A stretch of DNA of 64,000 nucleotides from Chloroflexota bacterium (GTDB taxonomy: Bacteria > Chloroflexota > Anaerolineae > Anaerolineales > UBA4823), in assembly GCA_029265355.1 (NCBI GenBank), contig JAJUJL010000019.1, positions 1 to 64,000 on the forward strand. Direction: 5' to 3'. The position numbers and the translations under genes are program-made. How positions within the stretch are numbered: position 1 is the stretch's first letter; each line of letters opens with the position of its first letter. Shown in pieces: positions 216 through 5,292 of this stretch. The notes under the pieces were generated by a model that worked only from the letters and a program-made list of their open reading frames with translations, did not search any database and had not been told where the DNA came from.

Positions 216-1409
216 TCAGGCAGCCAGCCGGCGTTGCCGGTAATGGCGGTAATAGCGGCGCAGCCATAAAAATGGTCTCAGCAGCCCATACAATGGGAAA
301 AGAGCATCCGGCAGAGGCAGGTCCTGCCAGTCGTGCGGGAAGATCCACAGTTTGCGCAGCACATCCCATTTGTAGCGCAGCCCATCTTTGAGGTGCAGGG
401 CATACAAAGCAAGATGCAGGCGCTGCATCTTGCCGAACTCGGTGCCGCGATAGTCACGGTTTTGGATAGCCTTGATCGAACTCCTCACCAGCCTGTGAAC
501 CCGTGCGTCCTGCGCGCCGGGGATCGCCCCAGGAACGGGCAGCGCCAACAATCGGTTCGCCAGCAGCGCGCCCTGCCCCAAGGAGCGAAGCAGTCCGAGA
601 TCGGTCATCCTGGCTTGCAGTGCTTTCCAATCGTTTTCATTGGCACAGCGCAACCAGGCGGCGAAGTCCAACAGCCACTTCAAGCGCACCCAGTTGTGCT
701 TCGAACCATGAACCAGCAAATAGACCGGCAAATCCTCGTCTGCCAGGGCAAACAAGCGATTACCAAACTGCGACAGTGGCTGAGCGCGCGACAGCATCTG
801 CGCGACGGTGTGCGGTGATACCAAATCGGGTGAAGCGATCGACCAGTGCAGCTCGAGATGGATGTGCGGTTCGGGCAAGAAGTAGCTGCTGTGATACCAC
901 TCCTGCTGGTAGGCTTGCCGTTGGCGGGGAGTCAATGGGATGGCAGGGACCACTCGCTGGCAACCATGTTCCAGGAGCAGCGCGTCAGCCTGCGCAAGCC
1001 GATCCGGGTGCACCAGCAAGTCCAGGTCGGTGCTGGTGCGCAGGCTGGCATCCCCAAACAGGCGCTGCGCCAATACAGGGCCCTTCAATGTGCACAGTGG
1101 AATGCCTGCCTGAGAAAACCATTCAGAAATGCGTCCCAATGCCAGCAAGAGCTGCAGAACGCGCTGGCGATTATGCTCGGCTCGCTCTCTGAGCGCTGCA
1201 AGCACGGGCGCGGGAACCAGCCCAGCGGCATAAGAACTCAGGCTGCGGTAAACCATAGGAATGAGATGATGCCGCTCAACCAGGGTAACAAAAGCCTGCC
1301 AATCCACGCCAGGGTGGCAACAGGCAACCAGGCGCAAAATTTCCACCTCCTGCTTTGGAGGCAAGGCGCCCGTCAAAAGAAGCTGCAGATCAGGACTGAA
1401 TTCGGGCAA
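216..1409 (-). CDS. Nucleotidyltransferase family protein of the lasso-peptide cluster
   Basis: This 397-residue protein matches the uncharacterised nucleotidyltransferase family (NTP_transf_5 type) that accompanies paeninodin-like lasso peptide clusters. The signature is LKGPVLAQRLFGDASLRTST followed directly by DLDLLV at about residues 108-133, giving the LKG...R..xDxDLLV pattern in which the two Asp residues would bind metal. The start is TTG; no better ATG precedes it and the ribosome site is weak. It is the last gene of the minus-strand operon, 90 bases after the precursor gene. Its substrate is unknown; in related clusters it is thought to modify the peptide or its phosphate, but that is inference. 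No lasso exporter gene lies between it and the left edge. Confidence 0.85.
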   Translation of the reverse strand: MPEFSPDLQLLLTGALPPKQEVEILRLVACCHPGVDWQAFVTLVERHHLIPMVYRSLSSYAAGLVPAPVLAALRERAEHNRQRVLQLLLALGRISEWFSQAGIPLCTLKGPVLAQRLFGDASLRTSTDLDLLVHPDRLAQADALLLEHGCQRVVPAIPLTPRQRQAYQQEWYHSSYFLPEPHIHLELHWSIASPDLVSPHTVAQMLSRAQPLSQFGNRLFALADEDLPVYLLVHGSKHNWVRLKWLLDFAAWLRCANENDWKALQARMTDLGLLRSLGQGALLANRLLALPVPGAIPGAQDARVHRLVRSSIKAIQNRDYRGTEFGKMQRLHLALYALHLKDGLRYKWDVLRKLWIFPHDWQDLPLPDALFPLYGLLRPFLWLRRYYRHYRQRRLAA

Positions 1410-1499
1410 GATTACACGGAGAATAAAACCAAACTTCCGAAGTTCTGGACGCCCAGGCTTCGGAAGCTGTTGGAATCACAATCTTAAGATAGGCTGGGC

Positions 1500-1628
1500 T
1501 TAGGAAAAGCCGTCGGCATCAAAATTTTGACCCTGGCTGATGGCTGTTTCCTGGATATCCATTTTCTTGAGCTTCGGTGGAGTCCAGATCTGCTTTGCTT
1601 CTTTCTGCGGTTCGGGCGTATGCTCCAT
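1500..1628 (-). CDS. Lasso peptide precursor (paeninodin-like, 42 residues, C-terminal Ser)
   Basis: A 42-residue ORF begins with ATG at 1626-1628 behind a clear AGGAGA ribosome site and ends GFS-stop. The leader shows W15-x2-P18-x-L20-x3-D24-I25-x2-T28, the spacing of paeninodin-type lasso leaders, in which the conserved Thr sits at position -2 of the core. This predicts the core ISQGQNFDADGFS (13 residues), with Asp8 of the core as the likely macrolactam partner of residue 1. The last residue is Ser42, the kind of C-terminal Ser phosphorylated by the HPr-kinase-like enzymes of these clusters, and such a kinase is encoded at 4390-5292. An alternative core beginning at Gly33 with Asp at position 7 is possible but leaves Thr at -5. 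It lies unusually between the cyclase gene and the nucleotidyltransferase gene. Confidence 0.82.
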   Translation of the reverse strand: MEHTPEPQKEAKQIWTPPKLKKMDIQETAISQGQNFDADGFS

Positions 1629-1705
1629 AGGGGTCTCCTGTGAAAATACAAGAACAATCTGGGTTGGCGAACAAACGAACTGCGATTTATTACAGAATTT
1701 ATACC

Positions 1706-3658
1706 TTAAAAGTGCGAAAAACGCAACAGGAAAAACCCGACCATGAGCCCGCGCATGAGGATCGTACCGCAGGCCGCATTTTTTTCGTGGGTCAGGCCGC
1801 TTTCCAGGGAGGCCAGTATACCTTGCATGCGCTGCAGGTCGAGCACCTGGCGGGCAAGCTCGTGCTGGTCCAGGCGAGTCAGTGCCATCTCCACCTCGCG
1901 CCGGCTGGACAGCAGGCGCGCTGCCAGGTCGGCTGCTTGCAACCCTCGCCGGGTGTTTAGCCGCACCGCATCCGGCAGGTAGCCCCGCATGGCCCGGCGG
2001 ATCAGCCAGCGATCCACCCCCTGGCGCTGGTACTGCGTTTCCGGGATTGCCAGGCAAAGCTCGATCAAGCGGCGATCCTGGGTGGGGTCGCGCACTTCGA
2101 TCCCGTAAGCCCCACCCTTTTCGTGCCAGGAAGCCCCCAAAACGCTCCGCCCCGGCTGAATGATCGCCAGGCGCTGCTGCAATGGATCGGGATGGGTTAA
2201 CAGGGGCAAGTAACCAGCCTGCGCCATCTCCCGCTGCAGGCCAATCTGGCGGGCAAACTCTGCCCGGATGGCCGAATATCCTTTCCAGGCGTTGGCGCCC
2301 AGGCGAAACCGGCTGCGAATCTGATACATCATCGGCAGCGCCAGCGGTTTGAGCAGGAAGCGCCGCACCGCGCCCCAGTGGCTGAGCTTTGCGCCAGCTC
2401 GCGCCGATCCGAAAGCCTGCCAGAAGCCAGGCTGCTCCTCCGGTCGCGCAAACAGGGACGATGGTTCCAGCATGGGTAAAAGGCTTTCCCCGGCGCCAGC
2501 CCAGGAAATGACCGCGTTGCCCATCTGCCCGGTCAGCAGCGCACCTACCACGCGCTGGCGCGCCTCTTCAAGCAGCGCCGCCAGCCAGTGCTGGTTTCCA
2601 GCGGCGTGCACAGGCTCATCATGCACCCACAACATGCGCTCGATTGCTGCCAGGGGTGTGATATGCCCGGCAGGGATGAGAACATGCTCGACATTGCCCG
2701 CCAGGCGCGCGGTTTCCTGTGCCAGCGAGGTTTCATCGCCAAAGCGGCGCTCATCGGTGTAGCGGCTGGGATCGCTCAGCGGTATAGAGGTGAAAGCCAA
2801 CAGGCGCTCGTCGCGCTGGCGCAGCAAGCTCGCTGCCATCGCGGTGACCGAGCCCGAATCCAGCCCGCCGCTCAGCGTCACACCAACTGGCCGCAAGCTG
2901 CGTAGGCGAGTGGAGACTGCCTGGGTAAAAACCTCCATGAAAGCATCCACATAATCGTCATCGGTTTTCAGGCGCAGCTCAGAAACGTTTTCAGGAGACC
3001 AATAGCGCCTGATTTTCACCCCTTCAGGTGAAACAGCCATGCAGTGAGCTGGCGGCAGCCTCGAGATGTGCTCATAGCTGGTTTGCACACCATCTCCAGG
3101 CCAGGCGGTCAACAGTTGAGCGAGGCGCAGCAAATTGGGTCTCTTGGGAACCGACTCCAGCGCCAGCAAACCTTTCTTTGAGGAAGCAAACACAAAGCGT
3201 CGGGAATCATGATAGTAATAAAGTCCTGTATTGCCGTGTTGGTCACGAGCCAGGAAAAGCCGGCGCTGGCGTTCATCCCAGATGGCGAAATGCCAGTCGC
3301 CATCCAAATGCGAGATGCACGCCTCATCCCAGCGCAGGTAAGCCTGCAGGATCAGCTCGGCATCGGTCACCACCGTCGCAGGTGCGCTGATTTCCAGGCG
3401 CTCGAGCAGCTCGAGCCGGTTATCGAGGCGTGCCCCGGCGGTCAGCGTCAATCCGCTGGGAGCATGGTGCAGCGGCAAGCGCTCGCCAACCGCTTCCGGC
3501 GTGCTGGCGGCGTTCAGGCAGCCCAAGCCCACCGGCCCATGGCGCCAGGTCTGGCCTCCGTCCAGCGCCCAGTAAGCCAGGGCCTGCCGCATGGACGTCA
3601 ATTCTTCCTGGGCTGGCGGCGCGCCATCCAGGTTAAACAGGCCAAAAATCGCATTCAA
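1706..3658 (-). CDS. Lasso cyclase (asparagine synthetase-like C protein)
   Basis: This 650-residue protein has an N-terminal glutamine-amidotransferase-like domain (starting NAIFGLFNLDG) and a C-terminal ATP-pyrophosphatase domain with the PP-loop SGGLDSGSV at about residue 262. In lasso clusters this enzyme adenylates the Asp/Glu side chain of the core and closes the macrolactam ring. The residue that is the catalytic Cys in true asparagine synthetase (MCGIFG) is Ala here, as expected for lasso cyclases that do not use glutamine. The start is a TTG overlapping the TGA of the B2 gene (TTGA), which suggests translational coupling; the nearby ATG is out of frame. It is a biosynthetic cyclase, not an asparagine synthetase, because of its position among B1, B2 and the kinase. 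Confidence 0.92.
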   Translation of the reverse strand: MNAIFGLFNLDGAPPAQEELTSMRQALAYWALDGGQTWRHGPVGLGCLNAASTPEAVGERLPLHHAPSGLTLTAGARLDNRLELLERLEISAPATVVTDAELILQAYLRWDEACISHLDGDWHFAIWDERQRRLFLARDQHGNTGLYYYHDSRRFVFASSKKGLLALESVPKRPNLLRLAQLLTAWPGDGVQTSYEHISRLPPAHCMAVSPEGVKIRRYWSPENVSELRLKTDDDYVDAFMEVFTQAVSTRLRSLRPVGVTLSGGLDSGSVTAMAASLLRQRDERLLAFTSIPLSDPSRYTDERRFGDETSLAQETARLAGNVEHVLIPAGHITPLAAIERMLWVHDEPVHAAGNQHWLAALLEEARQRVVGALLTGQMGNAVISWAGAGESLLPMLEPSSLFARPEEQPGFWQAFGSARAGAKLSHWGAVRRFLLKPLALPMMYQIRSRFRLGANAWKGYSAIRAEFARQIGLQREMAQAGYLPLLTHPDPLQQRLAIIQPGRSVLGASWHEKGGAYGIEVRDPTQDRRLIELCLAIPETQYQRQGVDRWLIRRAMRGYLPDAVRLNTRRGLQAADLAARLLSSRREVEMALTRLDQHELARQVLDLQRMQGILASLESGLTHEKNAACGTILMRGLMVGFFLLRFSHF

Positions 3659-4110
3659 CCGCGCCCCTCGCTAAACACCGCAATGACTTTGAATCGCTCG
3701 TGCTGCGGCTCGCCGGTCAGGATCTCATCCCCGCAGCGCAGCCAGGCGTGCGCCTCCAGCCAGGTTTCCCGACCATGATCCACACCCAGGTAAAAAACGC
3801 TGGGCAGACCGCGCCGGCGCAGCATCCAACTGGCGGCAATCGCCTGCGCCAGGCACCTGGCGTCCCAGGGAAGATAATGAGCCAACACCCGCACGGCCCA
3901 CCCTACGCGCTGCGCCTGCTGCACCGCGCCGGATGCAAGCGGTGTCGCAGGCGGCGGCGCTCCCAGGCGGCCCAGGCTGGGAGCGATTTTTCCAAAGGGA
4001 ATGAGCCTGATCGCCGCCTGCGCAACGACCAGCGTCCATGCAGCTTCAAACAGAGTGAAGCGCTGCGCCCAGTCCAGCTCAAGCCACTTGTTGATCGCCT
4101 TGCGCCACAA
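3655..4110 (-). CDS. Lasso peptide B2 leader protease
   Basis: This 151-residue protein matches the transglutaminase-like cysteine protease (B2) that removes the leader from lasso precursors. The catalytic Cys86 lies in WDARCLAQAIAASWMLRRRG and the His121 in LEAHAWLRCGDEI, the usual Cys...AHAW arrangement, with an acidic residue following. The N-terminal ~60 residues are a hydrophobic helical region typical of the family. It overlaps the B1 gene by 32 bases and the cyclase gene by 4 bases, so the three are expected to be translated together. B1 and B2 are split here, as in Gram-positive and Chloroflexota clusters, rather than fused. Confidence 0.9.
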   Translation of the reverse strand: MWRKAINKWLELDWAQRFTLFEAAWTLVVAQAAIRLIPFGKIAPSLGRLGAPPPATPLASGAVQQAQRVGWAVRVLAHYLPWDARCLAQAIAASWMLRRRGLPSVFYLGVDHGRETWLEAHAWLRCGDEILTGEPQHERFKVIAVFSEGRG

Positions 4111-4393
4111 TGTGGATCAATCCTTCTTTATTCAGCTCTGCAAGGAAGGCGCACACCTGCTGTTCGCAGGCGCTGCGCTCTACATCATATTCTTCGCTCA
4201 ACTGTGCGCATATATCCCCCACCCGGCGCGGCTGGGCGATCAGCGTCCAGATGCGCTGACCGGTGGCGTCCAGCCCATAGTAGGAGGGGCGCGCCAGGCT
4301 CATCAGCACTGTTTCGCCATCCAGCTCGCTGGTCAGCAGGTTCTCAGTTTGCACAACGCAGGTATTTAAATCGATGGCAGCCGGTTTGGTCAT
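4079..4393 (-). CDS. Lasso peptide B1 / PqqD-type RRE protein
   Basis: This 104-residue protein has the PqqD fold signature: an N-terminal beta hairpin (about 17-35) followed by YYGLDATGQRIWTLI and a winged-helix-like segment ending in LNKEGLIHI. In lasso systems this RiPP recognition element binds the leader, usually through the conserved aromatic, Pro and Leu, and hands it to B2. Here the matching leader residues would be W15, P18 and L20 of the precursor. Its ATG overlaps the TGA of the kinase gene (ATGA). PQQ biosynthesis is excluded because none of the other pqq genes is present and all neighbours are lasso genes. Confidence 0.9.
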   Translation of the reverse strand: MTKPAAIDLNTCVVQTENLLTSELDGETVLMSLARPSYYGLDATGQRIWTLIAQPRRVGDICAQLSEEYDVERSACEQQVCAFLAELNKEGLIHIVAQGDQQVA

Positions 4394-5292
4394 GACAGAA
4401 AGTCCCTCATAATCAGGTCTGCCAGCTCATCCAATAGGAATGGCTGGGTTGGGCGCATGACGCGCGCCAGGCGCGCCTGGCGCGCCAGTGCTTGCGCTTG
4501 CAGAAAATGCTGCTGCTCGAGCTGCATGCCTGCCAGAAAGTGCAGGCGGTAAGTATTGGCAGTCAGTTCGCGTACTTTATCAAAACCGGTCAGCGGCGTC
4601 AAGTGGATGCCTGCCTGGTTTGCGACGGACAGCACATACACAGCAGCGACAAGGGCAGGGCGGCATTCGAATTCCTTTAGCGGAAAATCATATTTCTCCT
4701 GCAGGCTGTGCGTCTGTCGAAGCTGTCGCGCTTCGCTGCCCAATTTTTCAACCGAATCGGACCACAGGCTGATGCGTGGGTAAGCTGCCGATACTTGTAT
4801 GCGCCCTGACGGGCTGGCGGTGATGGCGCAGATATCATCACTGAGCACGCGAAAGCCGCGCTGCTGGAAAGCACCCGCCAGCGTAGACTTTCCGCTGCCC
4901 GAAGCGCCCAAGAAGATCGCCGCGCCTCTTTCGGAAGCTACTGCGCTGCCGTGCAGTGGCCAGGCGCCGCGCTGGTGCAACAGCGCCCCCATTGCCGAAC
5001 CGAGCAGAAAAAGCTGCACATCCCTGTCATCGGCGCCGGGATAGCGCTCGACCACAATCTCGTGCCCGGCGGAAACCAGGTAGCGCGCCACGCCCGCGAT
5101 ATCCAGCAGGAAGCGCCCAGGAGCGATCTGGTAAGCCGCCCCACGCTGCTGAACATCTTCCAGCCCAGCCGGGACCGGACCGCAACGCACGCACAGGTCC
5201 GGCGGCAGGTCATCGCCATCCCAGGCTGGCAGGCGCGGCATGTCGATTTCTGATGTGATCTGCAGACCAAATGCGTGGTAGCGGTGAAGCAC
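4390..5292 (-). CDS. HPr kinase-like lasso precursor kinase
   Basis: This 300-residue protein resembles the C-terminal catalytic domain of HPr kinase/phosphorylase: HGSAV at 114-118, Walker A GASGSGKS at 129-136 and SDD at 151-153. The paeninodin (PadeK) and thermobacillus (ThcoK) kinases of this family phosphorylate the C-terminal Ser of the lasso precursor; the precursor at 1500-1628 ends in Ser. HPr and the usual HPrK N-terminal domain are absent. The GTG start has AGAGGA six or so bases upstream. It is the first gene of the operon, with a TATAAT box about 40 bases upstream, and overlaps the B1 gene by 4 bases. Confidence 0.88.
   Translation of the reverse strand: MLHRYHAFGLQITSEIDMPRLPAWDGDDLPPDLCVRCGPVPAGLEDVQQRGAAYQIAPGRFLLDIAGVARYLVSAGHEIVVERYPGADDRDVQLFLLGSAMGALLHQRGAWPLHGSAVASERGAAIFLGASGSGKSTLAGAFQQRGFRVLSDDICAITASPSGRIQVSAAYPRISLWSDSVEKLGSEARQLRQTHSLQEKYDFPLKEFECRPALVAAVYVLSVANQAGIHLTPLTGFDKVRELTANTYRLHFLAGMQLEQQHFLQAQALARQARLARVMRPTQPFLLDELADLIMRDFLS

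Follow-up and report, generated by a model that had tools for sequence, protein, structure and literature searches.

A predicted lasso peptide operon with its own kinase and nucleotidyltransferase in a Chloroflexota genome

The first 64,000 nucleotides (nt) of contig JAJUJL010000019.1, from a Chloroflexota bacterium assembly (GCA_029265355.1) and hereafter called the window, contain six adjacent genes with the appearance of a lasso peptide cluster that includes a kinase (K) and a nucleotidyltransferase (N). Do these genes make up a whole pathway? If so, which serine of the precursor is phosphorylated, how would the product leave the cell, and is such a cluster exceptional in this phylum? The kinase, B1, B2, the cyclase (C), a 42-residue precursor (A) and N all run in one direction on the minus strand, as the original prediction had placed them, and form one operon, K-B1-B2-C-A-N, which spans 5292 to 216; N extends to 216, beyond the 1500-5292 span first reported. 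We consider it highly probable that the operon encodes the complete biosynthesis of a single short class II-type lasso peptide whose C-terminus is tailored.

The operon and its enzymes

The features of the operon, in the order of transcription, are:

4390..5292 (-), K: lasso-peptide (HPrK-like) precursor kinase, 300 amino acids; GTG start and GAGAGGA Shine-Dalgarno-like sequence
4079..4393 (-), B1: recognition element of ribosomally synthesized and post-translationally modified peptides (RiPP recognition element, RRE; PqqD family)
3655..4110 (-), B2: leader peptidase (transglutaminase-like Cys protease)
1706..3658 (-), C: lasso cyclase (asparagine-synthetase-like)
1635..1639 (-): AGGAG Shine-Dalgarno sequence of A, 6 nt ahead of the precursor ATG
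1500..1628 (-), A: precursor peptide, 42 amino acids
1542..1628 (-): leader, residues 1-29, W(-15)xxP(-12)xL(-10)...T(-2)A(-1)
1503..1541 (-): predicted core, ISQGQNFDADGFS, with ring Ile1-Asp8 and C-terminal Ser13 as predicted phospho-site
1433..1467 (-): hairpin of 10 bp followed by a U-rich tract, between A and N, terminator- or attenuator-like
216..1409 (-), N: nucleotidyltransferase (PF14907), PsmN type

The first four genes have the overlapping starts and stops originally described, with reading-frame overlaps of 4 nt (K/B1), 32 nt (B1/B2) and 4 nt (B2/C), and every open reading frame (ORF) of the operon is intact. What can be read from the sequence itself comprises the genes, their families, the intact active-site motifs, the leader spacing and, at the level of clades, a link between the kinase and a C-terminal Ser.

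Both B proteins score above lasso-specific cut-offs. B1 reaches 92 bits against NF033536 (lasso_PqqD_Bac, cut-off 80). Its nearest solved structure is chain B of 9x90 (PbaB1, E 2.8e-15), to which it aligns without gaps and with 10 of 12 leader-pocket residues identical, the differences being I44 to Thr and E75 to Ala; the Trp-pocket residues kept are, in PbaB1 numbering, Y39, L41, I48, L65, Y69, V71, Q79, F83, L87 and L92. B2 reaches 102.6 bits against NF033537 (cut-off 33) and also matches PF13471; its Cys86 and His121 are invariant among relatives. It is the single Transglut_core3 match of the genome, and a search of the genome for a second lasso system found none, with one B2 only. The best match of the cyclase is NF033535 (E 1e-120); it belongs to PF00733, carries the motif SGGLDS, and is aligned at 41-49% by the cyclases of other kinase-lasso clusters. 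N matches PF14907 (E 3.6e-60, 204 bits), and residues D128 and D130 of its intact DxD are invariant in nine aligned sequences. On the basis of this family and motif, N is assigned as a pseudomycoidin-type nucleotidyltransferase.

Could the kinase be a true HPr kinase? We rejected this assignment because its scores lie far under the cut-offs for TIGR00679 (16.3 bits, cut-off 240) and PF07475 (16.9 bits, cut-off 33.3); TIGR00679 has no match anywhere in the genome. Against TIGR04352 (HprK_rel_A) it scores 35.9 bits (E 4e-9, cut-off 200). The His-Lys-Asp-Asp motif of lasso precursor kinases of the PadeK/ThcoK type (PMC9266682) is intact, with H114, K135 and D152 invariant in relatives and D153 present in at least 90%. 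The structure model (predicted local distance difference test score, pLDDT, 95.7) has the PEPCK/HPrK fold, and a profile of the Anaerolineae relatives of the kinase matches HPr kinase structures (E 6e-10). A whole-chain structure comparison (Foldseek, VIA) ranked PEPCK over HPrK, which is uninformative on substrate because both have one fold. With B1 and B2 above lasso-specific cut-offs and a kinase distinct from HPr kinases, the original prediction of a kinase-tailored lasso cluster is upheld.

The core peptide and the serine that is modified

The precursor, MEHTPEPQKEAKQIWTPPKLKKMDIQETA-ISQGQNFDADGFS, is a leader followed by a core of 13 residues. It is the sole ORF in the 64 kb that fits the search pattern [WY]xxPx[LIVMF]-x(6-9)-T-x-core with Asp or Glu at core position 7-9, of which 0.2 would be expected on average in order-2 Markov sequences of the same length. 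It has the residues that define a precursor of split-B systems, namely W15, P18, L20 and T28 of the leader and Asp8 of the core. The structure of the paeninodin-type complex PbaA-PbaB1 has been solved, and the motif of its leader is W-15, P-12, L-10 (PMC13381572). Cutting two residues past Thr28 gives W-15, P-12, L-10 and T-2, a spacing identical to that of PbaA, and a Priestia precursor annotated "paeninodin family" has the same spacing as well. From this spacing and the Thr(-2) of related precursors we infer the cleavage site, and the core is predicted to be ISQGQNFDADGFS, with ring Ile1-Asp8, tail ADGFS and, as first claimed, Ser at its C-terminus. Kindred layouts occur elsewhere, in AGGPGLTDAGVLS (locus L163) and in SGGGFVNDGGGFS (L140), the latter a core equal in length and layout from a deltaproteobacterial kinase cluster. 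The curated paeninodin-precursor model NF033524, against which Bacillota references score 46-58 bits, did not match the window precursor at E up to 1. The description "paeninodin-like" is thus apt for mechanism and leader but not for the precursor as that model defines it.

Which serine does the kinase modify? We compared the kinases of lasso clusters, with Paenibacillus, Priestia and BsfK as reference sequences or records, in a tree of 84 rows made up of lasso-cluster kinases and BsfK. On this tree the label "precursor ends in Ser" changes 7 times, against 17.5 when shuffled, and none of 500 shuffles was as low. The window kinase groups with those of L032, L033, L035 and L037 (Shimodaira-Hasegawa-like approximate likelihood ratio test, SH-aLRT, 89), whose precursors nearly all end in Ser. 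Because of this clustering and the clade in which the window kinase lies, Ser13 is its likely target.

A different pattern is seen in other relatives. Among 80 parsed precursors 45 have a C-terminal Ser, 2 of them together with Ser5; of the 35 that lack it, 23 carry Ser5. Cores in the Ser5 group follow the pattern xxxGSxxD (xxxGSxxD8G), and their kinases form clades of their own; loci of this group include L039, L040, L041, L050, L113, L115 and L124, with L126, L128, L131, L154, L170 and others besides. This suggests the hypothesis that lasso kinases fall into two phosphorylation-site classes, C-terminal Ser and ring Ser5; we put it no higher because the sequences are related and independent changes are few, and on independent pairs the comparison of C-terminal Ser with Ser5 had too few pairs to decide. 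It offers a testable rule for which Ser a lasso kinase modifies, the C-terminal one or that at ring position 5. Judged from its sequence, the window operon belongs to the C-terminal-Ser class.

We therefore weighed the alternative that the target is ring Ser2 and think it improbable. Modification within the ring has a precedent in the Bradymonas kinase BsfK, which acts on Ser3 (PMC10368454), many kinase clusters without a C-terminal Ser carry an invariant ring Ser5, and the closest cyclases to that of the window (L039, L040) fall in the Ser5 group. However, position 5 of the window core is Gln and its last residue is Ser, and the window kinase lies outside the Ser5 clades, nearest to kinases whose precursors nearly all end in Ser.

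The pathway proposed here takes its step order, phospho-site, ring size, lasso topology and N chemistry from characterised homologues, for which kinase activity, B1-assisted phosphorylation and N activity have been shown experimentally (PMC9266682, PMC10368454). B1 would bind the WxxPxL leader and present the precursor to the kinase, which would add phosphate, or perhaps polyphosphate, to the C-terminal Ser while the precursor is still linear. Together, B1 and B2 would then cut the leader off after Ala(-1) (Ala29), and C would close the ring by linking the amino group of Ile1 with the side chain of Asp8, the tail ADGFS being threaded through it. Finally, N would probably cap the phosphate with a sugar or nucleotidyl group, by analogy with PsmN in pseudomycoidin.

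Is a core this short able to thread? With 13 residues, a tail of five and Phe12 as the one bulky tail residue, the product might instead be a phosphorylated branched macrolactam or a linear phosphopeptide, and linear polyphosphorylated peptides (LPPs) from related enzymes do exist (PMC13381572); an alternative leader spacing would shorten the core to 11 residues. We hold this to be about as unlikely as phosphorylation of Ser2. B2 and C, which are missing from LPP clusters, are present and intact here, cores of 13 to 15 residues with Asp8 recur in kinase clusters of several phyla, and phospho- or phosphosugar-Ser13 could serve as a lower plug.

Several points weigh against our interpretation of the operon as a complete lasso pathway. 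The cyclase, at 404 bits, is under the curated NF033535 cut-off of 525, and the support of 89 for the kinase clade is not starred. If the leader followed the W(-17) spacing found in other lasso leaders, cleavage would fall before Gln32 and the core would have 11 residues, too few for a lasso; we rejected this spacing, which has no Thr at -2, whereas the paeninodin-type W(-15) fits. A core that begins with Ile1 is uncommon, as is a tail of five residues. N has no clear Shine-Dalgarno sequence, and given this and the hairpin ahead of it N is perhaps poorly coupled to the rest. The lasso topology and the product are predictions from the genes.

Export, expression and integrity

No exporter adjoins the operon within the window, in agreement with the original prediction. 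Base 1 of the window is the contig end, and bases 2-142 resemble the 3' end of a plus-strand ORF, matching no Pfam family, that converges on the operon. Because this fragment, which ends at 142, faces the operon, a co-directional exporter directly past N is unlikely. A search of the rest of the draft genome (98.5% complete) for a lasso D-type exporter, proposed earlier as a check, likewise revealed no orthologue: general ABC exporters are present, and the best match to lasso D is 32% identical over nearly the full length, against 50-65% mutual identity for most lasso Ds of kinase clusters.

The missing exporter had been regarded as unusual, a view that does not hold. We counted fused exporters, leaving out split or distant ones, in 18 Chloroflexota kinase clusters flanked on each side by at least 3 kb of sequence, and in 16 none was found within 5 kb; absence is therefore usual in this phylum. 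Kinase clusters without D are also known from other work (PMC10368454, PMC11705953). It is possible that the product leaves by a general exporter or stays in the cell.

The hairpin between A and N (-27.2 kcal/mol, z -3.4) was equalled in stability by 1 of 200 shuffles. Its long loop kept a simple terminator scan from flagging it. It may limit N expression.

That the operon is a degraded, non-functional remnant we judge very unlikely: it lacks the exporter that L042, with the same gene order, has between A and N and the sulfotransferase that many relatives have between K and B1, yet none of the remaining ORFs is broken, their starts overlap, the catalytic residues are conserved, the precursor has a good ribosome site, and clusters without an exporter are the norm in Chloroflexota.

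We also offer, as a speculation with little weight, that the product is a minimal phospho-lasso of 13 residues, closed between Ile1 and Asp8, whose phospho- or phosphosugar-Ser13 plugs the tail and which acts in the cell or at its surface with no dedicated exporter. If this were true, the wider family would split into C-terminal-Ser and ring-Ser5 kinases.

Distribution and comparison with known systems

A 2021 review places kinase- and nucleotidyltransferase-tailored lasso chemistry in Firmicutes and Proteobacteria (PMC8498205), and paeninodins have been called restricted to Bacillota (2026; PMC13381572). A first contig scan with the kinase sequence as sole query gave no match. Among 396 sampled Anaerolineae genomes, a kinase with B1, B2 or C is present in at least 26 besides the one studied here, a lower bound, as only the best loci were opened. 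Such clusters are also found in records labelled Acidobacteria, Proteobacteria, Sporomusa, Riflebacteria, Wallbacteria, Bacteroidetes, Planctomycetota, Nitrospirae and Deinococcales, most of them metagenome bins in which individual phylum labels may be wrong. The searchable literature yielded no description of Chloroflexota kinase-lasso clusters. The expectation that a Chloroflexota member widens the known range thus stands against that literature, but the window is one case among others; the range does widen, if modestly, and this operon is not the only one to widen it. Lasso chemistry tailored by a kinase and a nucleotidyltransferase is common among Anaerolineae and occurs in many phyla.

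The relatives have features of their own. Many Anaerolineae kinase-lasso clusters have a PF00685 sulfotransferase gene between K and B1 (for example L032 10534-11391, L034 8625-9482, L042 9047-9964 and L115 11829-12689); the window has none there, K overlapping B1. The literature examined yielded no sulfated lasso peptide. Two tandem kinase genes follow the cyclase in L050, L056, L120, L124, L135, L136, L144 and L155. Since the copies mostly fall in separate kinase-tree clades, the two may work one after the other or have different target sites. Four different precursor ORFs are present downstream of the single kinase-lasso cluster of L032 (14291-15470), which suggests that one enzyme set there serves several peptides.

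The position of the precursor after the cyclase had also been called unusual. However, the published order of firmicute paeninodin is C A K B1 B2 D (PMC5067487), as on a Priestia plasmid annotated "paeninodin family lasso peptide" (C-A-K-B1-B2-D); a Paenibacillus record has N-C-A-K-B1-B2. Of 63 precursors compared, 50 are downstream of C, 41 of them within 700 nt, and this placement is therefore normal. The window order is that of paeninodin with its two blocks, C-A and K-B1-B2, swapped.

How, then, does the operon compare with known systems? LPP RiPPs, described in Bacillota alone, have an SpI-RRE-HprK core in which an archaeal-type signal peptidase replaces B2 and C; the window operon has B2 and C and no signal peptidase. 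The Bradymonas bsf cluster shares K, B1, B2, C, A and N, and some relatives likewise lack D, but its site is ring Ser3 and its leader has Ile(-2), in contrast to Thr(-2) and a C-terminal Ser here. With the pseudomycoidin cluster (PsmK, PsmN) the window shares a kinase and a nucleotidyltransferase that would be expected to transfer hexose onto the phosphate, a chemistry assigned here by analogy; it differs in having no exporter and in the place of N, last and past a hairpin. Paeninodin-type clusters of Bacillota (PadeK, ThcoK) have in common with it the HPrK-like kinase, split B1/B2, the cyclase, the W(-15)xxP(-12)xL(-10)...T(-2) leader, a C-terminal Ser, a precursor right after the cyclase and the B1 Trp pocket. 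The window differs from them in having K-B1-B2 ahead of C-A, no D exporter, a 13-residue core, no NF033524 match and a place in Chloroflexota. The Anaerolineae cluster L042 (genome G050, JAADII010000006.1) shares the order K...B1-B2-C-A...N and precursors ending in Ser; its full order, K-sulfotransferase-B1-B2-C-A-A-D-N, differs by the sulfotransferase between K and B1, the second precursor and the ABC exporter between A and N.

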